This document shows, piece after piece, positions 1-62,607 of a DNA stretch of 64,000 nt; position 1 is the first letter of the stretch; each line of letters starts with the position of its first letter. The stretch lies in contig JAIWNF010000040.1 of NCBI GenBank assembly GCA_025093555.1, positions 455,365 through 519,364 of the forward strand, in the 5' to 3' direction. The notes under the pieces are model-generated. The model was not told the DNA's origin. It did no database searches and saw only the letters and a list, made by a program, of their open reading frames with translations. The position numbers were made by a program, and so were the translations under genes. The stretch comes from Circinella umbellata. Taxonomy: Eukaryota > Mucoromycota > Mucoromycetes > Mucorales > Lichtheimiaceae.

Positions 1-2
1 AG

Positions 3-803
3 TTATATAAGAAAATTAGCGAGACAGATTGTTTAGGTATGGATGGTGGTTATAACTTGTTCATACAAAAGTTTAAAGATAATGCAACAGATGCTGGTTA
101 TGGTTTTTATGACCGAAATTTCTTATATCCTATAAGAAAAGAACCCGGACAAAAATTAACACTAAATGAGACACACTTCAATAATAAGTTTGGGTCATTC
201 CGTTCATCAATTGAAGCACAATTCTCTATGCTTGGCTCTAAGTTTGAACGATTTAATAACAATCGTGCAGCATTACAAATATCTGATATAAAATACTATA
301 ATATTCAGTTTCGCGTTGCATGCATTCTTACTAACATCTGGCGATTTGTAGATAAGTATGATATAGAGGTACAGCCACACCATAAGTTATGGTATGGAAA
401 AGGTTTCGAATTTCCAAGTAAGAAAAACAAACTCGACTTGGTATTTTCAAATGAGCAAAAGGTAAATACTGAGTATAACGAAATGGTTGAAATGCAACAG
501 AAGTTTTTACAGCTTAATATGAATCAGTCGATAGATATGGTTATTGATAGTGAGGAAGATGCTGATGACAATTTATCAAAACGAAGAAGAAAGGCCACAA
601 GAGGAGGACAAAGAAATAGACAGTATGATAACTCATATGAAATTGAGATAATTGTAGGGCATGTATATACTAACAACAAATATATATTTGAGGTTAAGTG
701 GGTTGGATACGATGCAATGGATAATAGCTGGTTAACAATTGATAAGTTTAATGATCGGGAAATGTTACATGAATATATGGCGCCACATGATATTCAGCTC
801 TAA
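3..803 (+). CDS. DDE transposase (PIF/Harbinger/DDE_4-like) with C-terminal chromodomain, 5' truncated by window
   Basis: The frame is open from the window edge; the first ATG is at 39 but the protein clearly starts upstream. The segment around MDGGY (39-53) fits a central catalytic-Asp region. The stretch FNNKFGSFRSSIEAQF, followed about 40 residues later by FRVACILTNIW, matches the C-terminal half of DDE_4/Harbinger transposases, where a Glu lies in an 'S.R..IE..F' context. A basic patch (KRRRKATRGGQR) leads into a chromodomain of about 50 residues containing YEIEIIVGH, FEVKWVGY and NSWL, the aromatic-cage type that binds methylated histone tails. The stop is nine bases from the stop of the convergent rep gene, suggesting both belong to one element. 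The first catalytic Asp lies outside the window, so activity cannot be judged. The family call is from motif recognition; the chromodomain is the firmer half. Confidence 0.75.
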   Translation, partial: LYKKISETDCLGMDGGYNLFIQKFKDNATDAGYGFYDRNFLYPIRKEPGQKLTLNETHFNNKFGSFRSSIEAQFSMLGSKFERFNNNRAALQISDIKYYNIQFRVACILTNIWRFVDKYDIEVQPHHKLWYGKGFEFPSKKNKLDLVFSNEQKVNTEYNEMVEMQQKFLQLNMNQSIDMVIDSEEDADDNLSKRRRKATRGGQRNRQYDNSYEIEIIVGHVYTNNKYIFEVKWVGYDAMDNSWLTIDKFNDREMLHEYMAPHDIQL

Positions 804-812
804 ATTATTTTC

Positions 813-2912
813 TTACTTATTTTGCTTATTGAAAAACCTCATATTAAAACCAATTGTATCAACCTTTTGTTTATTAGCCCAACTATATTCATGCTTTACA
901 TATTCATTAGTTATACTTATGCTTGGTTTTGTATCCACTATTTCTTTTTTTATCTCAGACTCTTTTGTTACATCTTTATCACCTATTATGACCTGTTTGA
1001 TAGCCTTTTGCCTTTTAAAATAGTCTTTAGGCTGTATTTCTTCTATGATTTGCTTATTCTTTCGTTTATTTTTATTACGTCTTCTTTTCTTTTTATGCTT
1101 TGGTATATTACTTTGTATGCTACAGTCACTGCTTTGTTCTGATTCAGATGTACTGACATCTATATATTTATGTTTCTCTGTATCCTCTGGTGGATTGTCC
1201 CAATTTATGTCTTCAGTTATTAGCTCGTCACACTTTGTTTCATTTAGTACATCTTCCCAGTTTCTACAATCTGTTGGTGCTAGTGACTTCACAGTTGACC
1301 ATCCTCTATTAGTTTGCTTCGGCGGGTCATATTGTTTACTGTCCTGTATATTATGATTATTATACTTTTCCTCTTGTTTTTTCATATATTCTTCTGAATC
1401 AGCTAGTTCCTGAAGCTCTTCTGCTCTTTTATCCATTGGTGTATATTTTTTCACACCATCTTGACCACTATTCTTAGCATATCGTATAAATGTATGCTGA
1501 TCTTGGTATTCATTTTCATATTCATTTTTAAATAGATCCTCATACATATCCATGTTTTCATAATATATAAATTTCTCTTCATAATCCTTTACATTCATTG
1601 TATATGGATTCCATATAATATGTCCTTTACGGTTTTTATCAACATATATTATATATAAACGGTTTAAAGTTGGTTCTAGCTCATATATTGATTTATTCTT
1701 ATATAACATATGAGGCATATAATTACTATTCAATATTATTGGCATATTCTTTTTTTTAGTAATTGACTTAGTAAATTTACCATTTAGTTTTAATCGTGTT
1801 CCTTCTAACATTTGGTTTAGAAATGTTAGTTTGAAATCAGAACCTGTTTCTTCATTATACATGAAGTCATAATCATCATCCTTATAATCTGACCAATCAT
1901 TTTCTTTATTCATCAGATATGCTCGATGACCACCTTGTTCTATCAAATCTATGTTATATGTCTTTCCAACATTAGATGGACCTACTATCCAGTATTGTGG
2001 TATCTTATTTTTCCCACCAAACATCGTTTCAATACCAAACATGGACCACATATATAATTTATTTCCAGGATTATTTTCCATTTGGGTATCATGGAAGTAG
2101 CTATTTAGATTTGATTTTACTGTGTCATATTTCCATAATAATTCTGGATACATCTGTGTTGCTTTGGTCATTGTTATTGTTTTATTTATTAAATTATAAC
2201 CAAGAAGTTGTTGGTGCATTTTTCTGGTCTTAATTTCATAATTTGGGTCCATGTTATAAGCAATATAATCCTTTCCTTTCATACAATAACTAATTGACTT
2301 TTGTGGGTTACCACCTGGTTTAATGTTTGGAGTAACACCATCGATAGTAAAAAATTTACGCGCTGTTTTAGTATCAAATCGTTCATCTAATTGTATCCAT
2401 ATATGCACATGTTTTTCCCCAGTTTCTGGTGCAATTTCATCACATGCAATTGCCTTTTCAATTCGGTAACCAATACATTCATGCTTTGTAAACCATTCCA
2501 TTACCTGTTCTTTCGTTAAATGGAAATCCTTACAAATATATGTGAATAGTCCCTTAGTATTTTGAAACCGGAATTCTTTATCACCCTGTGAGGTAGCCGC
2601 ACTGGAAGTGTTACCATCTAACATTGCATCGGAAAAATGAGGATTTAAGGATTTGAGGAATCTCACAAATGATCGAATTCTTCCAATGATGTTATTGCGT
2701 GATGCATCCTTCGTTGTCTTATCTACTTTAGCCTTCTTAAGGTCCTTTTCAAGTTCTGACCTTAATTGTGTAACAAGAAGATCAGACTCAATATGCTGAT
2801 GATTTTCAGCAAGATGTTTTGCTCTTTCAATCAAGAGCGTCAATGTTATTCCTAAAATAGGAACAAATTCAGCCATAATGGTAATAAATGTGAGCAAATT
2901 GATTTGGTCCAT
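813..2912 (-). CDS. CRESS-DNA-type Rep: HUH endonuclease plus SF3 helicase, 699 aa
   Basis: One intact frame. I take the ATG at 2912 because the 34 codons upstream open only with TTG. About 115 N-terminal residues are family-atypical and partly coiled-coil. Then come rolling-circle motif I (LFTYI, residues 122-126), motif II HVHIW (168-172) and motif III YCMK (209-212, nicking Tyr209). A superfamily-3 helicase follows, with Walker A GPSNVGKT (311-318), an acidic Walker B region (YDFMYNEE) and motif C (MPIILNSN, 390-397). This order and these motifs are those of Rep proteins of circular ssDNA viruses, plasmids and their genomic relatives, which nick and unwind DNA for rolling-circle replication. 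The C-terminal ~200 residues are acidic, then strongly basic (KHKKKRRRNKNKRKNK), probably a nuclear localisation signal. The frame has no stop over 2.1 kb, unlike the relics nearby. It converges on the transposase gene. Whether it is an element gene or a domesticated viral gene is inference. Confidence 0.88.
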   Translation of the reverse strand: MDQINLLTFITIMAEFVPILGITLTLLIERAKHLAENHQHIESDLLVTQLRSELEKDLKKAKVDKTTKDASRNNIIGRIRSFVRFLKSLNPHFSDAMLDGNTSSAATSQGDKEFRFQNTKGLFTYICKDFHLTKEQVMEWFTKHECIGYRIEKAIACDEIAPETGEKHVHIWIQLDERFDTKTARKFFTIDGVTPNIKPGGNPQKSISYCMKGKDYIAYNMDPNYEIKTRKMHQQLLGYNLINKTITMTKATQMYPELLWKYDTVKSNLNSYFHDTQMENNPGNKLYMWSMFGIETMFGGKNKIPQYWIVGPSNVGKTYNIDLIEQGGHRAYLMNKENDWSDYKDDDYDFMYNEETGSDFKLTFLNQMLEGTRLKLNGKFTKSITKKKNMPIILNSNYMPHMLYKNKSIYELEPTLNRLYIIYVDKNRKGHIIWNPYTMNVKDYEEKFIYYENMDMYEDLFKNEYENEYQDQHTFIRYAKNSGQDGVKKYTPMDKRAEELQELADSEEYMKKQEEKYNNHNIQDSKQYDPPKQTNRGWSTVKSLAPTDCRNWEDVLNETKCDELITEDINWDNPPEDTEKHKYIDVSTSESEQSSDCSIQSNIPKHKKKRRRNKNKRKNKQIIEEIQPKDYFKRQKAIKQVIIGDKDVTKESEIKKEIVDTKPSISITNEYVKHEYSWANKQKVDTIGFNMRFFNKQNK

Positions 2913-3046
2913 ATTGTGTTGATAGTGTTGTGTATGTGTAGTATTAAAAAATATAACAAATAAATTTGACTTTATATTTTGAGAAGTTATTTTATATAAT
3001 AAAATAAAATTCAATTTTTATTTTCAAAATTTTTAAAAGTATGCAT

Positions 3047-3114
3047 GCCAAGACATTCATACATAAATTAATTTAATAAAAATTAATTTGGCTATACCGT
3101 TTTGCCTTGGCTAT
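3047..3114. promoter_or_regulatory. Candidate Rep origin: AT hairpin and iteron-like repeats
   Basis: Upstream of rep lies a perfect 10-bp stem (AAATTAATTT at 3065-3074 and again at 3080-3089, self-complementary) around a 5-nt AATAA loop. TTGGCTAT occurs at 3088-3095 and 3107-3114 in direct orientation. GCCAAG (3047-3052) is matched by CTTGGC (3106-3111), bracketing the hairpin. CRESS replicons carry a nicked stem-loop next to iterons that bind Rep, so the layout is suggestive. The loop is not the canonical nonanucleotide, and AT-rich DNA makes chance palindromes common. Confidence 0.35.
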
Positions 3115-3289
3115 CCATCCGACTAGTGCCAATAGATCAGAGCATAATCACTATAACCTTGACTGGTCCCCTACTCAGGTATATAACTTTATTTTTGTTT
3201 ATAATCTATGATCAAATTGAAACATGCATTATTAATAATGTATCAATCTTAGTGGAGAAAAATCAAGCAGTGCTTCAAGTAATCGAAAG

Positions 3290-62177: not shown

Positions 62178-62607
62178 TTTAAGTAATTGATTTACGTATT
62201 GAGTTGTGTAAGAGTAAAATTGTTGGTGATGAGAATTTGTTTTTGTTTGTGTTTTGTTGCCTTTATATATCTTTTTTTTTTCTGGTTATTGTAATTTATT
62301 TATGTTGATTTGTGTCGTTGAATTATTCCTTTGTTGGATATTGATATTGTAATGTTGTGACACTGAATAGTTGTTTGATTGATTGATGATGTAATTTTTG
62401 TGTTTGATGTTGTGTATATTAAGATCGTGTTGATTAATGTATTACTGTATATTTTGTTTGGTGATTTTTGTATTGTATTTTTGTGTTGTGTTGTATTTTT
62501 GTATTTTATTTTTGTATTGTAATTTAGTGTTGCATTTTTGTATTGTATTTTTTTTTTATATTGATGTATGTGTTGTGTAATTGTATTGTTGATTAATTTA
62601 TGTTGTG
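62178..62607. repeat. T/G-rich low-complexity tract
   Basis: Dominated by irregular repeats of TTGTATTTTTGTATT type, strongest at 62440-62570. It separates the small ORF from the integrase relic. It could be promoter DNA of the ORF or internal LTR sequence. Confidence 0.5.

Follow-up and report, generated by a model that had tools for sequence, protein, structure and literature searches.

A Harbinger-like transposon of Circinella umbellata with a putative CRESS-type Rep in the slot of its usual second gene

Two convergent genes at the locus

The window analysed here is a stretch of 64,000 nucleotides from the mucoralean fungus Circinella umbellata (contig JAIWNF010000040.1, positions 455,365 to 519,364; G000:C146:455365-519364 in our numbering of the assembly, which was searched over its 50.8 Mb and 210 contigs). 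At its left edge lie the two genes of a transposon: a DDE_Tnp_4 transposase on the forward strand (3..803) and, on the reverse strand (813..2912), a predicted Rep of the kind encoded by circular Rep-encoding single-stranded (CRESS) DNA viruses. A first-pass annotation of the window had proposed that a DDE-chromodomain transposase and an HUH-SF3 Rep stand here tail to tail, 9 base pairs (bp) apart, and this is borne out by a stop-to-stop gap of 9 bp (804-812) together with Pfam and PDB matches.

The window holds the 3′ part of the transposase gene, 266 codons ending in a chromodomain, and the gene starts to the left of it; the full-length frame, read in another copy of the element (contig C162), encodes 492 amino acids (aa) from its ATG. 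DDE_Tnp_4, which we take to be the transposase family of PIF/Harbinger elements, is matched with an E-value of 7.4e-10 (39.1 bits against a Pfam cutoff of 24.8). Of the presumed catalytic residues, D164 and E297 are invariant among 16 aligned transposases and D240 is present in at least 90% of them. The chromodomain (636..776, forward strand) is weak in this element, with 23.7 bits in the window and 22.3 bits in the full-length C162 protein, both under the Pfam cutoff of 25.1, and clear in a relative from the same genome (L035, 40 bits). It aligns with solved chromodomains at E 0.05-0.09, with Y, W and Y at what are presumably the aromatic positions of the methyl-lysine cage. The window transposase is 91% identical to a protein of Circinella minor.

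The Rep frame, described from the outset as fully intact, does run over 699 aa from its ATG with no internal stops. It comprises a helical N-terminal region, an HUH endonuclease domain with the motifs HVH and YCMK (2265..2573, reverse strand, placed by a PDB sequence match to residues 114-216), an SF3 helicase domain with the Walker A motif GPSNVGKT (1638..2015, reverse strand, placed with approximate borders by alignment and weaker structure matches) and a basic C-terminal stretch. As a single sequence it matches a Rep chain in PDB at E 5.7e-7, and a profile of 11 sequences matches four Rep entries at E 1.6e-9 to 2e-8, the best stretches being essentially the HUH part. The Pfam family Gemini_AL1 is found in 8 of the 11 family members, the window Rep scoring 19.6 bits, under the cutoff of 24; a search of the whole genome with Gemini_AL1 was insensitive, since it returned zero matches and so missed even the known copies. 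A first structure model of the whole protein was poor (predicted local distance difference test, pLDDT, 50) and a model of residues 108-470 reached pLDDT 77. Among the best PDB matches of the latter are the Rep of Vientovirus FB, which we take to be a redondovirus, and the Rep domain of tomato yellow leaf curl virus (TYLCV), with a template modelling (TM) score of 0.86 normalised by target length. The helicase half is matched more weakly, by Rep40 of adeno-associated virus (1e-3) and by a circovirus Rep ATPase domain (8e-3); alignments with CRESS Reps extend over about 320-390 columns at low whole-chain TM scores (0.25-0.39, query-normalised). The same model matches 563 viral proteins at E <= 0.001, and those that are named among the best 50 of the 563 are Reps. 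Taken together, sequence comparison and modelling identify the second gene as encoding a predicted CRESS-type HUH-SF3 Rep with catalytic motifs.

Among 5.8 billion proteins, a search that relies on shared words and misses more distant relatives retrieved 16 Rep homologues, from jgi or lgn contigs or from Mucorales (Circinella minor, Rhizopus stolonifer). Ten of them entered the motif alignment, the other six, mostly Circinella minor fragments, being aligned later. The motifs, under the names that we presume to be usual for Reps, are retained in most of the aligned homologues that hold the region (HxH in 8 of 9, YxxK in 9 of 9 and Walker A in 10 of 10). These names agree with those in the available text of PMC6668415. 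A tree of 11 Rep proteins was poorly resolved.

A mobile unit with common ends and target duplications

The ends shared with other copies define a transposon of 4,036 bp (G000:C146:454500-458535, window positions -864..3171), of which 1..3171 lies inside the window, an assignment (without strand) that rests on shared ends, 3-bp duplications and empty sites. The span of 1..3114 initially given to the element must therefore be corrected, as the right end is at 3171 and the left end 864 bp outside the window. Extension of the left flank, as the first-pass annotation had advised, recovered both this terminus and the target site duplication TAC, whose right-hand member occupies 3172..3174 (again without strand) and whose partner lies left of the window.

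Four full-length copies (the window copy on C146 and those on C162, C66 and C75) are 99.4-99.6% identical and differ pairwise at 15-23 positions; a fifth, on C94, has the same ends and a Rep gene split by another insert. All five are flanked by 3-bp target duplications (TAC, ATA, AAT, ATG and ACA), and a search with joined host flanks found paralogous empty sites spanning all five insertion points. For the C146, C162 and C94 copies, empty sites were read base by base in six paralogues and carry the 3-bp target once, with ACG in the C94 paralogue where the element copy has ACA. At the other two points the evidence comes without base-by-base reading: the C66 paralogues extend only 19-23 bp past the junction on the left, and of the C75 paralogues one extends 19 bp past the junction and another covers both flanks at 80% identity. 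Both genes therefore entered each insertion site together.

A single pair of ends encloses the two genes, which have inserted repeatedly as a unit, with target duplications of 3 bp, and whose coding sequences were conserved between lineages. The idea that they form one mobile unit has held up at several loci, and the shared ends and empty sites led us to reject a chance juxtaposition of a transposase and a Rep. An end of a DDE element between the two genes was also looked for and rejected: none was found, and the gap between Rep and transposase protein matches is a constant 14-16 bp in 7 of 7 loci.

The insert in the C94 Rep (L022:4897-8927, G000:C94) is roughly 4 kb long and has two open reading frames (ORFs). 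The product of one is 504 aa long and bears a SWIM-like Cys/His motif, and we take the insert to be Mutator-like. Its flanking matches overlap by 10 bp, as expected from a 10-bp target duplication.

The second gene is exchangeable

The genome contains many more transposases of this family than Reps. We counted 119 of 137 transposase matches (the 18 weakest, with E 5.9e-5 and up, were omitted, 15 of these matching the chromodomain part only), 22 of 25 Rep matches (the three omitted match the N-terminal or linker part only) and all 95 matches to a small Cys/His-rich protein. After merging, 34 of 90 transposase loci have the gene for this small protein directly 3′ of the transposase, 7 have a Rep, none has both and 49 have neither; the last group includes truncated copies, and search counts are lower bounds. 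In two of the loci read (L035 on C18 and L037 on C133), the transposase is followed by a tail-to-tail Cys/His-rich ORF of about 160 aa (L035:2739-3230 and L037:2964-3437), and no partner was found at two others (L036 and L038, on C13 and at C3:95934). The small partner, possibly a zinc-binding protein, yielded nothing above noise when two examples were scanned against Pfam, and no similarity was found between it and the Rep.

The partner or Rep is tail to tail with the transposase in 41 of 41 cases. As this includes all 34 non-Rep partners, the ambisense layout is a property of the transposon family, and its supposed modelling on the gene arrangement of single-stranded DNA viruses was not confirmed. 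Rep occupies the slot of the family's usual second gene.

A transposase tree built from 44 of 54 homologues (those of at least 360 aa) and five proteins of this genome bears on the direction of the exchange. The partner-bearing L037 branches outside a group of 36 (99/97) that includes the Rep-bearing element, which makes the small partner the probable ancestral condition, the root of the tree being the midpoint only. In the same tree, the transposase P0028 falls outside a group of 13 (98/96) holding the Rep-bearing and the partner-bearing C18 elements. For both P0028 (jgi and lgn) and the Rep homologue P0002 (jgi), the longest contig on record measures 4,459 bp, and no other pair of listed Rep and transposase proteins coincides in this way; this is presumably one contig. 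Should both genes sit on it, either Rep was acquired or swapped on more than one occasion or its presence predates the split.

Selection on both proteins

Compared with a diverged copy on C68, itself now broken, differences at codon positions 1/2/3 number 78/56/141 in Rep and 55/44/148 in the transposase. Rep gives 20/10/37 against the C3 copy, and partial copies show the same order less strongly (C167, 48/30/96; C175, 37/16/54; C203, 43/26/56; C160, 41/28/55). This excess at third positions is the signature of selection that acted on both proteins until decay of the copies set in, and it indicates that Rep was kept under selection between lineages. The Rep frame is open in the window and C66 copies; it has a stop in C162 and a frameshift in C75, and is split in C94.

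These patterns bear on whether the Rep is a passenger, a virus-derived gene captured by chance beside a transposase and merely hitch-hiking with it. Insertions of single-stranded DNA virus Reps into fungal genomes are known (PMC3198968), and several of the present Rep copies are broken, as a passenger's might be. Codon-position selection across lineage divergence, the lack of any locus with both a Rep and the normal partner, and the constant gap between the two protein matches all speak against such hitch-hiking, which we regard as improbable.

Terminal sequences and short derivatives

The putative terminal inverted repeats are short and imperfect, consisting of GGrGrCC ends and one inner block. 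Their match over 45 bp is equalled by 12 of 2000 shuffles and by 58 of 2000 random internal pairs, and that over 60 bp by 169 of 2000 shuffles; a claim of clear inverted repeats was dropped after this comparison. Rep elements and at least one short derivative share a conserved right end (3041..3171, without strand). It contains inverted GCCAAG-type motifs (3047-3054 and 3104-3111) that flank an AT-rich inverted repeat (3065-3089), features that make it a candidate Rep site.

With the last 142 bp as query, 25 matches were obtained, of which five are the near-identical copies; short elements without transposase or Rep are among them. One such element (L034:511-1757, G000:C4) is 1,247 bp long, is flanked by the duplication CTT and has the same two ends, with 27 bp of clear similarity retained at the left; the right end is kept though neither transposase nor Rep is present. 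In Rep's position it has an ORF of 298 aa that has no known domains, contains the Rep linker block (2584..2653 in the window, reverse strand; 96% DNA identity over 70 bp to L034, and a protein match) and is otherwise unrelated to Rep.

This ORF is open in the C4 element and in a C112 copy 98% identical to it, and has 44 matches genome-wide, some of them merely to the linker block within Rep genes. Related short-element matches occur on C112, C46, C124, C129, C161, C166 and other contigs; the C4 element itself sits in an apparent retroelement gag region.

A proposed working partner for the DDE enzyme

We moderately favour the reading that this is a Harbinger-like (DDE_Tnp_4) two-gene transposon in which a CRESS-type Rep has taken the place of the usual second gene and acts as a working, probably replicating, partner. 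The DDE enzyme would cut and insert the element, with the Rep as its partner. Rep would probably bind the conserved right end, nick there and unwind the DNA with its helicase. Copying would take place before or during reinsertion, with the element either still integrated or briefly excised as a circle. That Rep probably replicates or unwinds the element is suggested by the retention of its nicking and helicase motifs. The chromodomain, for its part, may bias insertion towards silenced repeats: all five insertion points are in DNA that is itself repeated in the genome, which may fit guidance to repeats.

Part of this could hold if Rep were a DNA-binding partner only, having taken over from the ordinary partner the recognition of the ends and assistance to the transposase, with mobility owing nothing to its nicking and helicase activities. 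The C-terminal stretch of Rep is basic, and Rep sits in the ordinary partner's slot, no locus holding both. According to the available text of two papers, moreover, the second protein of Harbinger elements attaches to their ends and promotes nuclear import (PMC9179366), and Harbinger movement requires both proteins (PMC2836001). The conservation of YxxK and Walker A in all aligned homologues holding the region, and of HxH in all but one, would be odd if binding alone mattered, and we consider a purely binding role rather unlikely.

Several observations weigh against a replicating partner. For Rep-driven replication itself there is no direct evidence. Folding of the right end, compared with shuffled sequences, shows a modest gain in two copies (z -1.9 and -2.0) and none in three diverged copies, and the left end folds about as well (z -1.75); a right-end hairpin conserved across lineages is accordingly not supported. 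The assembly contains no head-to-tail junction in which the exact right and left ends lie within 25 bp of each other, the simplest footprint of circles or rolling-circle concatemers; this absence neither proves nor excludes short-lived circles. No gain in copy number is visible, as merged loci number 13 for Rep elements and 68 for the partner type. The first-pass annotation had also asked whether either gene occurs alone elsewhere. The transposase family does occur without Rep, in the 34 loci with another partner and the 49 with neither. Of the 13 Rep loci, 6 lack a transposase within 3 kb (30 of 68 for the small partner). One of the six is the distal half of the interrupted C94 copy, another (C167) lies less than 0.5 kb from a contig end, and the rest are partial. 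Changes in the four recent copies are spread over all codon positions, as for copies no longer selected. Finally, among the Rep homologues, P0002 has HYY in place of HxH in the second HUH motif and lacks the second histidine, with YxxK and Walker A present, and the Circinella minor gene model P0066 spans the region without a YxxK.

Some of the same results tell on a possibility raised in the first-pass annotation, namely that the element exists partly as a persistent episome, an autonomously replicating, capsid-less single-stranded DNA replicon that inserts by DDE chemistry. The predicted full HUH-SF3 Rep, with CRESS Reps as the closest structural matches of its model, and the conserved right end with its inverted motifs would suit such a life cycle. 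The assembly holds no joined ends, the hairpin is weak, and scans of viral contigs with the Rep alignment, P0002 and the transposase alignment revealed, under the patterns used, no relatives of either protein. We think a persistent episome hardly probable. The scans likewise argued against a provirus or virus contig, which we rejected, no capsid gene having been recognised either: besides the two genes there is no ORF above 106 aa in 1-3171 and none of at least 200 aa from an ATG in the left part, small ORFs not having been compared with capsids.

Returning to the replicating partner, a broader generalisation can be offered only tentatively: a replicate-then-paste class in which the DDE enzyme excises and inserts the element, a captured virus-type Rep copies the excised circle by rolling-circle replication, partners are exchangeable, and recruitment of Reps by DDE elements of fungi has happened repeatedly. 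Repeated recruitment is hinted at by a truffle element, considered below, and by the Rep P0002 and the transposase P0028, the latter from a separate transposase branch, which presumably share a contig.

Comparison with known systems

The element resembles PIF/Harbinger transposons in its DDE_Tnp_4-type transposase, its two genes and its 3-bp target duplication, as far as Harbinger features are described in the available text of PMC9179366. It differs in its second gene, which is Myb/SANT-like there and a Rep here, in its putative terminal inverted repeats, which are short and imperfect where those of Harbinger measure 25-50 bp, and in the C-terminal chromodomain of its transposase. With no Myb-like second gene and no long inverted repeats demonstrated, we do not class it as a Harbinger element in the strict sense. 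Harbinger-like ISL2EU elements have a DDE transposase and, as their second ORF, a nuclease gene (PMC9179366, available text). That nuclease is a YqaJ-type exonuclease, whereas the present protein is predicted to be an HUH nickase fused to an SF3 helicase, and Pfam finds only Gemini_AL1 in the second gene and no YqaJ-type exonuclease.

The closest precedent is the geminivirus-like transposon of the truffle Tuber melanosporum, reported by Liu et al. in 2011 with a Rep ORF and transposase ORFs (PMC3198968), likewise a fungal repeat element in which a geminivirus-like Rep and transposase ORFs lie between common ends. In the truffle element, a reconstructed copy, Rep is interrupted, there are two transposase ORFs (one interrupted, one truncated), and the ends are 37-bp inverted repeats with no obvious target duplication (PMC3198968). 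The present one, compared with it by description only, has a single transposase, natural copies in which both frames are open, target duplications of 3 bp, empty sites and an ordinary partner that is documented in relatives and whose slot the Rep occupies. The pairing, initially thought to be without precedent as a defined class, had therefore been reported, and beyond the Tuber element we found no printed account of it in the available text of the open-licence literature. What is new here is the partner swap, with its exchangeable second gene, together with exact ends and open frames.

With the CRESS-DNA viruses (geminiviruses, redondoviruses, genomoviruses) the element shares the predicted HUH-SF3 architecture of its Rep, the best PDB matches being those of Vientovirus FB and TYLCV. 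Unlike them, it is inserted with 3-bp duplications, and its 699-aa Rep has extra N- and C-terminal regions. Helitrons leave no target duplication and have a Rep fused to a Pif1-type helicase; the 3-bp duplications and the SF3-type helicase matches led us to reject an assignment to that group. The only CRESS family recognised in fungi is Genomoviridae, according to the available text of PMC9603141.

Cut-and-paste elements gain copies only indirectly, and one that combined a DDE integrase with a replication initiator of its own could do so directly. Such a pairing would make transposons and small circular DNA viruses harder to tell apart, and the swap offers a concrete route by which virus replication genes could become transposon parts, or the reverse. 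The relatives with the ordinary partner in the same genome provide a natural comparison for what the second gene contributes to a Harbinger-type element.

Other features

A distant second member of the transposase family lies at G000:C146:450508-451229, about 3.3 kb left of the element, and a partial relative consisting of the right end and pieces of the transposase (74-83% identical) is found at G000:C162:259353-260688, 2.5 kb from the C162 copy. Far to the right in the window, T/G-rich, low-complexity, imperfect tandem repeats (62446-62603) are found where the strands are strongly skewed, at 62-63 kb.

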